From: a virus
Length of the DNA: 39,263 nt
IMG/VR virus record: IMGVR_UViG_3300035703_000196
Coordinates: 1-39,263 of that record
Reading direction: 5' to 3' (one strand)
Shown here: positions 12,805 through 18,513 of the stretch, in pieces
Layout: every line of letters begins with the position of its first letter
Position numbering within the stretch: the first letter of the stretch is position 1
Notes under the pieces: generated by a model
What the model saw: the letters and a program-made list of their open reading frames with translations, nothing else
Database searches by the model: none
What the model was told of the DNA's origin: nothing
Program-made: the position numbers and the translations under genes

Positions 12805-14673
12805 CTATCCGTAAGTGTCAACCCATTGTTCGGCAAAGGCCTCATCTAAGTTGAGTGACATGCGTTGTTGTTTTTGACTTCTGGTTGCCCAGCGATTTGT
12901 TTGGTACTGTCCAACTGAAGAAGCCTTCTGCATTAATTCACGTATGCGAATGATAGCAAACCATAAAGCCATCACGCAGTCAGTTGGGTTCTTAGTCTCT
13001 GGCTTCCAAGTAATTAGTTGCTGTACAAGAGACTTGAGTCCCTCAGAGCCTTCGTTGCTTGGTAGTTCAATTAAACCGTTGTCTTGGTAGCGACCATCAT
13101 GGATAGTACCAAAGAGGCTAGACATAGATGCTACACCAAAAGATGTGTCCCACTTGTTCTTACCAGTAAAGTGTGAGTTTAACTGGCAGCCGTAGGTAGC
13201 CAGATAGTTACGCAGGTCAGTGTCCATAGCGTAGTACTTCTGGTGTGCGTTAATCTCAACACGAAACTCTTGTGGATGGTAACGCTCGACCCACTCACGA
13301 ATCAGAGCGTTTTCCTTTTGCGGAGTTGGGTCTGACATGTTAACGCAGTCAAGTACATAGATTCTACCATCGTCGCGGTTGTAAGATACTGCCACGAACG
13401 CTGAGCGTCCAGATACGGCAGGGTCAAAACCAATTACGGTGTAGGTGGAGTTTCCGCTGCGCGGGTGCCCTGGAGTACCTGGTTTAAGCGGTCCACGCTT
13501 TCGCATACCGTTGACACATCCTGCAACTGCTGTTGGCGAGAATATAGAATCGGACTGGACGTCTTCTTGTTGGTAGACCATAGCCCAGACAGATGCCGCC
13601 ACTTCAGAGCGGCGCGTAAAGAGCGAGGGTCCATCCCATTTCGGATAAAGTCCATTGTCATCAGGTTCATCAATCTCGTTCTCCTGCATTGTGGTCTTAG
13701 GCCACAGCGTCTTCCAGTTTTCAGGCTTCTCGTCAAACTGAAGTACGGCAGGCATTGCAAAGTAGGTAAAGGGTGACTTGCCACCAGACCATTGCTGGGA
13801 GTCACGTAGCATTTTGTATAGGTCAATTGGTGCAACTCGAGTGCCAACGATAATTAGTTTACCATGTCGCCCAAGGCGGGTAATAACTTCTTTTTGAATC
13901 CACTCGAGCTGCTTTTCCCACTCGTGGGCGTTGGAGCCCATAACAGCATCGTCGATGATAATCAGGTCAGCACGTGCACCGTAAATCTGGGAGCCCATAC
14001 CTAGGGCTTGGACCGTAGGGTCCTTCTCGCCAGAGTCGCGGCCTGTGCCCAGATAAATCATGTCGGCAGACCATTGTGTTGAGTCTGCCTTATAGCCACC
14101 GTTGGGGCCAAAGGCCACTTGTAACTTGGTGTAGGCTGGGTGGGAAAGTCTAGTTTTAATCGCCCCAAGAAACTTGCGGGCCATACCCTGAGTCTTTGAA
14201 ACAATGATGACGCGGGCGTTGGGGTTAGTCACAATCTTGTAGACGACATAGTTAGTCGTGATGACTGTGGACTTGGCGTGCTCAGGCGGTACGTTAATCA
14301 GTACACGGTTAGCCGCCCCTGGCTCGTAGGTCATGGCTGGGTCCATCCAGCGCGGCTCACGGCCCTCAATCAAATCTACCCAGTCAAGGTGATGGTCAAA
14401 GAGTTTGGTGTCTAGGAACTGCTCAGAGAAGTCTGGGAATGAGATATCGCCCAGTTCCTTTAGGTCAGTCTTGATGCCTTTACCCTCGAGGCGAGCAGCC
14501 TCGGCACGTTCTTTGAACTCAGGGTCAGTTGCACACCATTGGCGGAAGGCCACGTCTGAGCGGCCTACAGAGGCCATAGCCTGGGTAATCGTGCTACCCT
14601 GACTCAGTTGCTGCAGGGCCTTTTCTTGCGCCTCGCGCTTGGGGATGTTCTGAATCCCAGGTTTTCTACCCAT
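12805..14673 (-). CDS. terL: Terminase large subunit with N-terminal helix-turn-helix
   Basis: 622 residues. The ATPase domain shows a Walker A variant in 'NVPPEHAKST' (about residue 130), Walker B 'ADLIIIDDAV' and a coupling motif 'IIVGTRVA'. The nuclease domain begins with 'VIGFDPAVSG' (first catalytic Asp) and ends with a conserved Asp region 'NPTDCVMALWFA'. Residues 10-55 ('EKALQQLSQGSTITQAMASVGRS') look like a DNA-binding helix-turn-helix, usually a separate small-subunit property, so this may be a fused recognition domain. It is the first gene of the late operon, with AGGGGAC as ribosome site, and would cut and pump the replicated DNA into procapsids. Confidence 0.93.
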   Translation of the reverse strand: MGRKPGIQNIPKREAQEKALQQLSQGSTITQAMASVGRSDVAFRQWCATDPEFKERAEAARLEGKGIKTDLKELGDISFPDFSEQFLDTKLFDHHLDWVDLIEGREPRWMDPAMTYEPGAANRVLINVPPEHAKSTVITTNYVVYKIVTNPNARVIIVSKTQGMARKFLGAIKTRLSHPAYTKLQVAFGPNGGYKADSTQWSADMIYLGTGRDSGEKDPTVQALGMGSQIYGARADLIIIDDAVMGSNAHEWEKQLEWIQKEVITRLGRHGKLIIVGTRVAPIDLYKMLRDSQQWSGGKSPFTYFAMPAVLQFDEKPENWKTLWPKTTMQENEIDEPDDNGLYPKWDGPSLFTRRSEVAASVWAMVYQQEDVQSDSIFSPTAVAGCVNGMRKRGPLKPGTPGHPRSGNSTYTVIGFDPAVSGRSAFVAVSYNRDDGRIYVLDCVNMSDPTPQKENALIREWVERYHPQEFRVEINAHQKYYAMDTDLRNYLATYGCQLNSHFTGKNKWDTSFGVASMSSLFGTIHDGRYQDNGLIELPSNEGSEGLKSLVQQLITWKPETKNPTDCVMALWFAIIRIRELMQKASSVGQYQTNRWATRSQKQQRMSLNLDEAFAEQWVDTYG

Positions 14674-14967: not shown

Positions 14968-15069
14968 TATCAAAATTAAATAATCTGGGGTCAAATTGTC
15001 GACAAATAGATAAAACTATAAAGAGATTAAGCGGTTTAGGTATTTATAGACTTACCGACACTCCACCCA

Positions 15070-15218
15070 CCCACAGCAGACTCTCAGGAAACTCACAGTT
15101 AACTCTCAGTTTTGGGGGGCTATAATAATTCTCAGGAAGTTCTCAGGTAACTCTCAGACTTAACAGGGTGTGACCCACGTCACAGGATACTCTCAGACTT
15201 CTCTCAGGAAACTCACAG
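15070..15218. repeat. Eleven CTCTCAG-like boxes in three phased groups
   Basis: Seven-base boxes begin at 15070, 15081, 15092 and 15103; at 15129, 15140 and 15151; and at 15179, 15190, 15201 and 15212. Inside each group the spacing is exactly 11 bp, one helical turn. The boxes read CCCACAG, CTCTCAG, CTCACAG, CTCTCAG; TTCTCAG, TTCTCAG, CTCTCAG; GTCACAG, CTCTCAG, CTCTCAG, CTCACAG. Spacers are four bases, mostly A/T-rich. Seven-base direct repeats with four-base spacers are the architecture of OmpR/PhoB-family operators. The actinobacterial PhoP site TCACAGC-N4-TCACAGC is very close in sequence. The array ends 44 bp before a -35 element, as an activator site would. Iterons for a replication initiator are the alternative. 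Confidence 0.8.
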
Positions 15219-15242
15219 GGAAAGTGTGAGCGACATCACAAT

Positions 15243-15286
15243 GGGTTGAGCGTGTTGGGTGCTTGACATTGTGGGGTTGAGCGTGT
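15243..15286. repeat. 13-bp direct repeat GGGTTGAGCGTGT
   Basis: GGGTTGAGCGTGT occurs at 15243-15255 and again at 15274-15286, 31 bp apart (three helical turns). The second copy lies in the spacer of the promoter at 15263-15291 and ends at the first base of its -10, while the first lies just upstream of its -35. This is the usual layout for a repressor binding two sites around a promoter. Confidence 0.55.
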
Positions 15287-15291
15287 AGTCT
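15263..15291 (+). promoter_or_regulatory. Early promoter PE1 (TTGACA-17-TAGTCT)
   Basis: A perfect -35 TTGACA at 15263-15268, a 17-base spacer and a weak -10 TAGTCT at 15286-15291. A strong -35 with poor -10 is compatible with dependence on an activator or with repression through the flanking 13-bp repeats. It is the first rightward promoter after the phased box array. Confidence 0.5.
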
Positions 15292-15361
15292 TTGTCTTGT
15301 AATCGGATAGGGGAATAACCCCAAAGGGTCACAAAGCAAGACACGGGTCAATCGTGAGTAG

Positions 15362-15389
15362 TTGACAAGGTAGAATTATCGTGTATAAT
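15362..15389 (+). promoter_or_regulatory. Early promoter PE2 (TTGACA-16-TATAAT)
   Basis: Both hexamers are perfect consensus: TTGACA at 15362-15367 and TATAAT at 15384-15389 with a 16-base spacer. It should be the strongest host-type promoter in the region. The first coding start is more than 200 bases downstream, so its transcript begins with a long leader containing the structured segment at 15453-15529. Confidence 0.8.
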
Positions 15390-15452
15390 TCTCCAAAGAT
15401 AGGCAGACCTAGCGAAAGTTAGAGCGTCACTTATCAAAGACAATTCAATAGT

Positions 15453-15529
15453 GTGTAGGTCGGTAGTCTTGATTAGATACTTAGTAACAGCGGGACGCCC
15501 GTGAGTATCACGACACGCCCGACCTACAC
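15453..15529 (+). ncRNA. Structured leader or small RNA candidate
   Basis: GTGTAGGTCGG (15453-15463) is exactly complementary to CCGACCTACAC (15519-15529), an 11-bp closing stem. Inside it are two competing hairpins: CGGG/CCCG around ACG (15491-15501) and CGTGA/TCACG around GTA (15500-15512). The block is transcribed from the perfect promoter at 15362-15389 and ends before the next promoter. No T run follows, so it is not a plain terminator. It may be a small RNA, an attenuator or a DNA-level origin structure. Confidence 0.45.
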
Positions 15530-15536
15530 GCTAGAA

Positions 15537-15600: not shown

Positions 15601-15903
15601 ATGAGTTACAACCCCTACGGGGGTGGTAGTGGTAGTATCGTAGTTACGCCTAGTAAGCCTATTGTGACGGCTCGCCGTCTAGGTAGCCCTAATGCGCGAC
15701 TCACCGATACTAAGCATGGCAAGGCTGTACGCCGTACACGCCCACGCCACGCCGTAACGACCAACCGACCTAAGGTTGAGCGTGTGCTACCGACCCTAAC
15801 TGAACAGGAACAGGAACGCCTAGCCCGCGCCCTAGCACTTAGCGAACGCGAACGCGAGTTCCGCGCCACGCTACCTAGCGTACACATAGACGCGAACGAC
15901 TAA
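15601..15903 (+). CDS. First early protein, 100 aa, basic
   Basis: Unrecognised. The Gly-rich start 'SYNPYGGGSGSIVV' is followed by a basic stretch ('KHGKAVRRTRPRHAVTTNRPK', residues about 38-58) and an acidic helical C-terminus ('LTEQEQERLARALALSERERE'). Start ATG 15601 has GAGAGG 12-17 bases upstream and promoter PE3 35 bases upstream. As the first protein made it is a candidate for binding host RNA polymerase, nucleic acid or another host target, but nothing in the sequence shows which. Codon use is richer in C and G at third positions than in the late genes. Confidence 0.75.
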   Translation: MSYNPYGGGSGSIVVTPSKPIVTARRLGSPNARLTDTKHGKAVRRTRPRHAVTTNRPKVERVLPTLTEQEQERLARALALSEREREFRATLPSVHIDAND

Positions 15904-16350: not shown

Positions 16351-16380
16351 ACGACTATACAGCGAGAGGGGGTGAGATAC

Positions 16381-17685
16381 ATGGAAGAAGTTACCTATGA
16401 GGACAACATCAAAGAGTGTACGGATTGCAGTAGCACGATAGATGACGGAGATGAGTTAATCATCAACGAACATGCCTACTGTACAGAGTGTGCGTTCTTA
16501 TGCTTTGAGTGCGAGACTGTCTTTGCCGTTAGTGGTCAAGGTCGTGAGTTTGTTGCTGACGAGTGGTACTGCTGGGGTTGCGCGACACAATGCGAACGCT
16601 GTAATGACGGAGTTCGCAATGATGACACGCACACAGTAGACAACGAGTCATGGTGTGAGTACTGCTACGAGAACCACAGTTACTACTGTGAGTCATGTAG
16701 TGAGTCATCATCAGAGAGTACGACCTATGTGGGTGATAACCCTTACTGCGAGTCATGCTTTATGGATAACTGCTACTACTGTGATGACTGTGACGAGTCA
16801 TACCACAATGATTACCCTTGCGATTGTCGTGAGAGCGATAGCGTAGAGGGTAAGTGTTGTCGTGCCTATCGTAGTAGTGGTACTATCCACGACTACTCAT
16901 GCAAGCCAGCACCTATCTTCAAGGGTGTAAGCAAGCACAAGATGTATCTCGGCTTTGAGCTAGAGACAGAGATGCCACGTGTAGACTCTGCCTCATCATT
17001 CGCTTCTAGTGCCTTGCTAGGTACTGCGTACCTCAAGCATGACGGCAGTATTAGTAACGGGTTCGAGATAGTGACTCACCCACACACGCACCAAGAGTAC
17101 CGCGAGAATAGTGCAACGCTATGGCATACCATAGAGACACTACGCAAGGACTATGACGCTAGGTCGTGGGATACAGATACCTGTGGCTTACACATACACC
17201 TAAGTCGTGACGGATTTAGTAGTGGCGCACACTTGCATAGGTTCATAGCCTTTGTGTACCACAACGCACCATACATGATGAAGTTTGCAGGTCGCAAGAC
17301 TAGGTTCGCAAGGTTCAATGATGTGTACACCTTTGATGAGTTTGACCGCCCAGTATTCTCCATCAAGCACAAGGTCGGCAACCCTGACCGATACAGTTCA
17401 GAGAGATACTCAGCAGTCAATACGCAGAACAAGAACACCATAGAATTGCGCTTCTTTAGAGGCACAATGAAAGCAAGTGGCGTACTAAGTGCCCTAGACT
17501 TAGCACAAGCCATGGTAGAATACACTAGGGAACTACGACTAGATGACGTCAAACTTGGCGCACTATCTTGGGACTGGTTCGCTGACTATGTAGTGTCCAA
17601 CAATGGACTCTACCCCGACCTATACTCTAGGTTGGACAAGATACAATCGGTAGACATACACAACAAGGTTGTTGCTAATGCTTAG
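16381..17685 (+). CDS. Amidoligase (COOH-NH2 ligase) with Cys-rich zinc domains
   Basis: 434 residues from ATG 16381 (GAGAGGGGG site). An in-frame GTG at 16372 is less likely. Residues about 10-165 carry many CxxC pairs, six or more LIM-like or zinc-ribbon units. Residues about 185-420 show the glutamine-synthetase-fold amidoligase signature: 'GFELE' (191-195), 'KHDGSISNGFEIVT' (219-232), 'CGLHIHLSR' (268-276) and 'TIELRFFRGT' (about 353-362). Such enzymes join a carboxyl to an amine using ATP, making amide-linked peptides or modified proteins. The next gene is a class II glutamine amidotransferase, a partner predicted for this family by comparative genomics. The substrate is unknown; host cell-wall peptide or protein tagging are possibilities. 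Confidence 0.8.
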   Translation: MEEVTYEDNIKECTDCSSTIDDGDELIINEHAYCTECAFLCFECETVFAVSGQGREFVADEWYCWGCATQCERCNDGVRNDDTHTVDNESWCEYCYENHSYYCESCSESSSESTTYVGDNPYCESCFMDNCYYCDDCDESYHNDYPCDCRESDSVEGKCCRAYRSSGTIHDYSCKPAPIFKGVSKHKMYLGFELETEMPRVDSASSFASSALLGTAYLKHDGSISNGFEIVTHPHTHQEYRENSATLWHTIETLRKDYDARSWDTDTCGLHIHLSRDGFSSGAHLHRFIAFVYHNAPYMMKFAGRKTRFARFNDVYTFDEFDRPVFSIKHKVGNPDRYSSERYSAVNTQNKNTIELRFFRGTMKASGVLSALDLAQAMVEYTRELRLDDVKLGALSWDWFADYVVSNNGLYPDLYSRLDKIQSVDIHNKVVANA

Positions 17686-17697
17686 GGAGATGATACT

Positions 17698-18513
17698 ATG
17701 TGCTTACTTGTAGTGTGCGAGCCTAACTCCACACCAAACAAAGCCGACTTACACGCTGGTGCGTGTAGTAATCCACACGGATTTGGCTTTGCCATACATG
17801 CTGGCGATAGAATTATCTCAGAGCGTAGCATGTCTGCTAAAAAATCTATTGCCCGCTTCTTGGAATTACGCAAGCAATTCCCAGACGGGTACGCCATGTG
17901 GCACGCACGATACGCCACACATGGTGTTAAGAACGAACAGAATTGCCACCCGTTCAAGGTTGGTGATGATGAGCGTACTTACCTAGCACACAATGGTGTG
18001 CTTGACATAAGTATCGGCAAGTCCGACAAGCGTAGTGATACGCGTGTCTTCGCTGAGGATACACTACCTAGAATTGGTGGTGTGTCCGCACTTGATGACG
18101 ATAACGTATGGATAATGGCTGAGACTTGGGCTAAGGGTAGCAAGATTGCTATCCTAACATGTGACCCAGCAGCGCAACACCCTATGTATCTACTCAATGA
18201 GTCGGCTGGTTCATGGGACAATGAAGGTATCTGGTGGAGTAACCAAAGTCATAAGCGTACTACCTACCTAACACCTGTCAAAGCCATAGAATACGACGAC
18301 AAACTGTGGGACTACGCAGTAGATGTGGACATAGACCTAGAGCTATGCCCCTACTGCGAGTCTGCCACAGACTTGACAGACAACCCATACTACTGTAACA
18401 TGTGCAAGTCATGCTTTGATTGTTCAGTCATGATAGATGATTGCCTATGTTACACACCAAACAAAGACTGGCAAAGTAAACAAAGCCTAGCCAGTTTCCT
18501 ATACGAATACTAG
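17698..18513 (+). CDS. Class II glutamine amidotransferase (Ntn-hydrolase)
   Basis: 271 residues beginning MC, so removing Met exposes Cys as N-terminal nucleophile. Further family motifs: 'NPHGFGFA' (25-32), 'WHARYATHG' (68-76) and 'HNG' (98-100). These match the glutaminase domain of PurF/GlmS-type enzymes, which releases ammonia from glutamine. No synthetase domain follows; instead a C-terminal Cys-rich zinc ribbon (about 219-255, 'CPYCES', 'CNMCKSCFDC') is present. It is 12 bases from the amidoligase stop, so the two are co-transcribed and probably act as a pair, ammonia supply plus ligase. The ribosome site is AGGGAG. Confidence 0.85.
   Translation: MCLLVVCEPNSTPNKADLHAGACSNPHGFGFAIHAGDRIISERSMSAKKSIARFLELRKQFPDGYAMWHARYATHGVKNEQNCHPFKVGDDERTYLAHNGVLDISIGKSDKRSDTRVFAEDTLPRIGGVSALDDDNVWIMAETWAKGSKIAILTCDPAAQHPMYLLNESAGSWDNEGIWWSNQSHKRTTYLTPVKAIEYDDKLWDYAVDVDIDLELCPYCESATDLTDNPYYCNMCKSCFDCSVMIDDCLCYTPNKDWQSKQSLASFLYEY

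Follow-up and report, generated by a model that had tools for sequence, protein, structure and literature searches.

Which protein reads a set of seven-base boxes that repeat in direct orientation at 11-bp steps in the main control region of a phage, and what would the phage gain by it? The boxes lie in a 39,263-base virus record of 46% G+C, analysed over its whole length and called the window below. An exact terminal direct repeat of 127 bp makes it very probable that the window is a complete genome, assembled as a circle. It encodes a terminase, a portal, a DnaB-like helicase, an exonuclease, WhiB, a weak sigma-70-like protein and an amidoligase, and no tRNA genes were found in it. The nearest named relatives are phages F5 (OX376641) and E7 (OX376640), with a TerL identity of 79%; the host on which both were isolated is 'Ca. 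Planktophila', a member of the order 'Ca. Nanopelagicales' (PMC10202952). We presume that the phage of the window also infects Nanopelagicales-type actinobacteria, which are abundant in freshwaters worldwide; how infection by their phages is controlled is little understood.

The array and its surroundings

The control region is bounded by the leftward operon led by the terminase gene (14673) and by the rightward genes that start at 15601. Its features, with the genes to either side, are as follows; scores come from a matrix derived solely from host phoP promoters.

12805 to 14673, minus strand: terminase large subunit gene (PHROG 38, 4.6e-68), leading the leftward operon; the anchor for finding relatives
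15070 to 15076, plus strand: marginal box CCCACAG, in phase with group 1; two-box score 4.5
15081 to 15109, plus strand: group 1, PhoP-type boxes CTCTCAG, CTCACAG, CTCTCAG (starts 15081, 15092, 15103); scores 20.6 and 12.8
15129 to 15157, plus strand: group 2, boxes TTCTCAG, TTCTCAG, CTCTCAG (starts 15129, 15140, 15151); scores 21.9 and 26.2
15169 to 15184, no strand: CRP-type palindrome TGTGACCCACGTCACA, exact TGTGAN6TCACA
15179 to 15185, plus strand: in-phase GTCACAG overlapping the right half of the first palindrome, a shared element; score 15.0 when paired with the box at 15190
15190 to 15218, plus strand: group 3, boxes CTCTCAG, CTCTCAG, CTCACAG (starts 15190, 15201, 15212); scores 17.9 and 20.6
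15225 to 15240, no strand: CRP-type palindrome TGTGAGCGACATCACA, exact TGTGAN6TCACA, its centre 30 bp before the -35 box of P1
15263 to 15291, plus strand: predicted rightward promoter P1, read from the sequence as TTGACA (15263-15268), 17 bp, TAGTCT (15286-15291)
15293 to 15331, plus strand: conserved leader just after P1, around TGTAATCGGATAGGGGAATAACCCCAAAGGGTCACA, of the form TGTAATCGGATA-GGGG-N-CCCC-AAAGGGTCACAA with a short GGGG/CCCC hairpin
15362 to 15389, plus strand: second predicted rightward promoter of perfect consensus, TTGACA, 16 bp, TATAAT (12/12 matches)
16372 to 17685, plus strand: amidoligase-like gene (PF12224), the first large gene downstream; its relatives flank arrays in other phages
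17698 to 18513, plus strand: class-II glutamine amidotransferase-like gene (PF13522/PF13230) of the same module, which also adjoins arrays in other phages

All eleven boxes listed in an earlier, sequence-only reading of this DNA are present, with exact 11-bp steps inside each group. TCWCAG pairs at a lag of 11 occur seven times in the 39-kb window, every one of them inside the array, whereas each other lag between 7 and 30 yields at most one pair, with the exception of 22, which is 2 × 11. Order-1 Markov shuffles gave a mean of 0.02 pairs at lag 11 and a maximum of 1 in 100 shuffles. The boxes also follow a strict spacing rule, being direct repeats of 7 bp with a spacer of exactly 4 bp. They are not, however, of equal strength: the two-box site at 15070 scores 4.5 compared with 12.8-26.2 for the remaining sites in the array. 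Because that box is weak and the box at 15179 is half of the palindrome TGTGACCCACGTCACA, the robust core is nine boxes arranged 3+3+3 (15081/92/103, 15129/40/51 and 15190/201/212) rather than 4+3+4. The half-site equivalent to the 15179 box reads TCACAC in the relative L009. The proposal that the boxes face the same side of the helix holds inside each group and fails between groups, since these are 26 and 39 bp apart and neither distance is a multiple of 11.

The array lies upstream of the rightward promoters, as had been claimed, and P1, which we infer to be early, is the nearer of the two listed above. With transcription predicted to start near 15298, the boxes span approximately -80 to -217. 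The perfect-consensus promoter at 15362-15389 means that P1 is only one among several promoters. The leader that follows P1 is present in 16 of the control regions scanned, the window included, and an Rfam search matched nothing anywhere in the window, leader included.

Immediately before the array, at 14998-15060, there is an 8-bp-periodic stretch with units such as GTCGACAA, ATAGATAA and CTTACCGAC. The same periodicity was found again in most of the relatives tested, where it beats all or nearly all shuffles; the stretch is possibly an origin element or another operator.

The same box at host phoP promoters

Triple TCTCAG arrays are a real feature of actinobacteria: in 395 genomes of one class we found approximately 41 matches, compared with 1 for a reversed-pattern control, and several are found right in front of genes for proteins with an OmpR-family-like start. 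A weaker excess over control was seen in a second class (centre G001), several genomes of which (L220, L221, L224, L114) share a conserved triple array TTCTCAGG-N-TTTTCTCAGGTTCCTCTCAGG. These triplets in actinobacterial promoters had made us suspect MprA, but the literature searched offers no usable MprA box and the host evidence leads to PhoP instead.

Within the class of 395 genomes, one order, which we infer to be the Nanopelagicales, has small genomes (mostly 1.2-1.6 Mb) with a locus G+C of 39-50% and, in 17 of 20, a rhodopsin gene. A two-box search across the whole order gave 42 matches against approximately 18 in the reversed control, with the signal concentrated at phoP promoters, where matches recur just upstream of one and the same regulator. 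Specifically, the site TTCTCAG-N4-YYYYCAG, with small variations, lies 14-50 bp before the start codon of this regulator in all 20 of the 20 Nanopelagicales-type genomes. Compared with solved structures, the one ortholog checked matches M. tuberculosis PhoP best (3r0j, 1.4e-87), PrrA being the next kind (1e-48) and RegX3 weaker still (3e-43). On this similarity the regulator is classed as an ortholog of M. tuberculosis PhoP; it is present in each of the 20 promoter genomes, and its gene is followed by a histidine kinase gene. The suggestion that the array senses phosphate is unsupported and was rejected, because the host regulator is not of the PhoB/RegX3 type: it is far closer to PhoP than to RegX3 (1e-87 against 3e-43), and its 209 bits fall below the curated PhoB cut-off of 296. 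No phosphate genes were seen among the phage proteins scanned.

Scored leave-one-out, the 20 host promoters reach 18.4-28.0 on the matrix, compared with a maximum of 13.9 for 2000 random 150-bp pieces of one host genome. A scan of a complete host genome of 1.38 Mb returned the phoP promoter as its best site (22.9), with only three sites at 19 or more and phoP as the sole regulator promoter among the strong sites. When the same host-only matrix is run over both strands of the window, its top six matches, and likewise seven of its top eight, fall in the array. The strongest site of the phage genome lies in group 2, and at approximately 26 (26.2-26.5) the best phage score exceeds that of any site in the complete host genome. 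The sequence-only reading had proposed an OmpR/PhoB-family operator close to the mycobacterial PhoP site, and this is supported, since in the hosts the genes for the M. tuberculosis PhoP ortholog are themselves preceded by the same box. Judged by sequence match and position, the array is a predicted operator for a regulator of the host-PhoP kind placed upstream of phage genes, and TCTCAG at an 11-bp step is predicted to be the code that PhoP recognizes across an entire bacterial order.

The known operator is instructive here. M. tuberculosis PhoP binds as a tandem dimer to direct repeats whose 7-bp units must be separated by exactly 4 bp, and its affinity is higher for three or four units than for two (PMC4832192). 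The phage array has in common with that operator (TCACAGC-N4-TCACAGC) the 7-bp box, the 4-bp spacer, the 11-bp step and the direct orientation, and the regulator of its presumed host is the ortholog. It differs in being phage-borne, in having nine strong boxes and in its core, which is TCTCAG in phage and host boxes and thus one base away from TCACAG, although TCACAG variants occur. In M. tuberculosis PhoP, one shared water links Asn212 and Ser216 to the third base of TCACAGC. Host PhoP has Gly and Thr in place of these two residues but keeps Glu215, Tyr217 and Tyr220, and that third base is T in host and phage boxes alike. It is suggestive that the Gly and Thr replacements fit the change from A to T at this position.

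Conservation and the second site type

Searching with the terminase yielded 80 related loci, and we compared 61 control regions of at least 600 bp, including those of the window and of the two isolates F5 and E7. Matches to the host matrix with a score of at least 12 are present in 32 of the 61, compared with 2 of 305 shuffles. The layout of the array is very similar in close relatives such as L009 and L014, while in several relatives it lies on the opposite strand with the 11-bp steps kept. The sequence-only reading had staked itself on the recurrence of the phasing in related phages, and because the phasing is conserved there it passes this first test. P1, with the -35 box TTGAC(A/T), and the leader downstream of it are conserved in many relatives as well; a fixed phase of the PhoP boxes to the -35 box of P1 was not found across them. 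F5 and E7, for which a Planktophila host is proven, have exact palindromes and no array, with one isolated strong site in E7 and none in F5, so that the array is tied to this host group by relatedness and by box identity only.

We also searched viral contigs at the DNA level for an 18-base two-box pattern and obtained 77 stretches, most of which bear genes of the window's phage group. In other phages, such as L433, L437, L440, L441 and L499, long TCTCAG arrays adjoin amidotransferase- and amidoligase-like genes, as read from the protein starts. Since this is the same module as that downstream of the array in the window, array and module seem to travel together. In L448 and L472, two-box sites stand directly before a short gene whose start is sigma-factor-like, with opposite-strand boxes nearby.

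The TGTGAN6TCACA palindromes went unmentioned in the sequence-only reading. The exact motif is found in 36 of the 61 control regions compared with 1 of 305 shuffles, and in most of the relatives measured the distance from palindrome centre to -35 box is 18, 29-30 or 40-41 bp, i.e., it changes in 11-bp steps; an exception is L054, at 34 bp. The host has a CRP ortholog, but the one host genome searched lacks exact sites, shows near matches no more often than expected, and so gives no support to a CRP regulon in the host. Because of this, identifying the palindromes as probable CRP sites draws on the site sequence, the known M. tuberculosis site, the host ortholog and the phasing to the promoter. 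PhoP and CRP sites share promoters in M. tuberculosis, where the two proteins interact (PMC9645806). The phage likewise has both site types upstream of a promoter, here phage-borne, with many PhoP boxes and with perfect palindromes that are CRP-type by sequence, and this upstream layout resembles that of activated M. tuberculosis promoters (PMC9645806).

What the array may do

It is established that the boxes exist, that they match host phoP promoters and are conserved, and where they lie relative to P1. The reading that we consider likely is that they form a multi-copy operator for host PhoP, the Nanopelagicales ortholog, which would tune P1 and the module according to the stress state of the host. 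One PhoP monomer would occupy each 7-bp box, and the 11-bp steps would let monomers stack head to tail, giving a cooperative trimer on each of the three groups. The CRP-type palindromes, one between groups and one next to the promoter, would provide a second input, probably CRP. The most likely target is the rightward promoter P1 (15263-15291) with the genes behind it. Activation is the predicted effect of such binding on P1, but the downstream consensus promoters would need no activator, which counts against this part of the reading.

A wider version, which we hold only tentatively and think somewhat less likely to be right than wrong, is that host PhoP (envelope or stress) and CRP (cAMP) jointly set entry into the phage programme, and that the arrays, as copies of the phage DNA accumulate, also drain the pool of host PhoP. 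If true, the master control region of lytic phages of the dominant freshwater Actinobacteria would make a two-input decision by means of cooperative PhoP arrays whose strength surpasses that of every site seen in a host genome.

Depletion might also be the whole purpose: as a decoy, the array would titrate PhoP off its few chromosomal sites and so disable the stress response of the infected host, while phage promoters would be little affected directly. The numbers are compatible with this, as strong sites number about three in a complete host genome, against several of similar strength in each phage genome, multiplied by replication; the lack of a fixed phase between PhoP boxes and P1 and the occurrence of arrays on either strand also fit. 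We nevertheless regard a pure decoy as unlikely, given the array's position in the main control region, ahead of promoters conserved in many relatives, and given that arrays in other phages adjoin the amidoligase module or a sigma-factor-like gene rather than arbitrary places. A less probable variant is that the boxes serve another OmpR-family regulator, of the host or encoded by the phage. Host genomes have three to seven OmpR-type regulators and the sites of this family resemble one another, but phoP is the only regulator promoter among the strong sites of the complete host genome, and a domain scan found no Trans_reg_C protein encoded by the phage.

Tandem direct repeats between genes are also typical of plasmid and phage iterons, and the sequence-only reading had named replication as the competing idea, a phage or host initiator binding the boxes. 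The region is partly AT-rich, the 8-bp-periodic array lies at approximately 14998-15060, and DnaA-type TTWTCCACA boxes are present in 12 of the 61 relatives' control regions compared with 5 of 305 shuffles. For the 11-bp boxes themselves the idea is disfavoured, and we think it highly improbable: the sequences they match are phoP promoters of hosts and not origins, no initiator matches them, no TTWTCCACA box lies less than 1 kb from the window's terminase gene, and no skew switch points uniquely at the array region. Their period of 11 bp is also not that of iterons, which is typically roughly 20 bp. Least credible of all, and hardly to be entertained, is a packaging site at which terminase binds repeats beside its own gene. 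In its favour, 400-550 bp separate the array from the terminase gene, and about one in four of the relatives' contigs ends within approximately 550 bp upstream of that gene. These ends cluster upstream of the gene, yet they fall at many positions even among the closest relatives while other contigs run through, and the array is found away from terminase in other phages and in bacterial promoters; the packaging explanation was rejected. The scattered breaks among the viral loci L002-L081 look as if the region upstream of terminase were hypervariable or hard to assemble.

The proposed operator for host PhoP has a precedent of a kind. Cyanophage promoter regions bear pho boxes of host PhoB (Zeng and Chisholm 2012, as cited in PMC10976474), so that phages answering to a host response regulator are already known. 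In the cyanophages and, as predicted, in the window, a phage promoter region bears sites for an OmpR/PhoB-family regulator of the host and so responds to host state, whereas the cyanophage sites are at individual genes (pstS and others) and respond to phosphate. What is new here is the different regulator, the actinobacterial host group, the long and putatively cooperative array, and its place in the main divergent control region. No report of such a phage array was found in the literature searched, a search with most subscription journals outside its scope. The array thus suggests a virus that adjusts its gene expression to the state of its host; it would extend the hijacking of host regulators from cyanophage pho boxes to another regulator and to a main control region, and for Nanopelagicales it provides a connection from host physiology to phage gene expression that can be tested directly.

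Two further features of these control regions deserve mention. The untranslated stretch before the first rightward gene holds a 15-bp inverted repeat, 93% complementary, with arms 55 bp apart (15449-15533). TTWTCCACA boxes occur in the control regions of L035, L036, L038, L039, L041, L043, L062, L065, L068, L069, L072 and L077, with a count of up to five, in L072; because DnaA-type boxes are present in these 12 of 61, the control region may double as a replication origin in some relatives.
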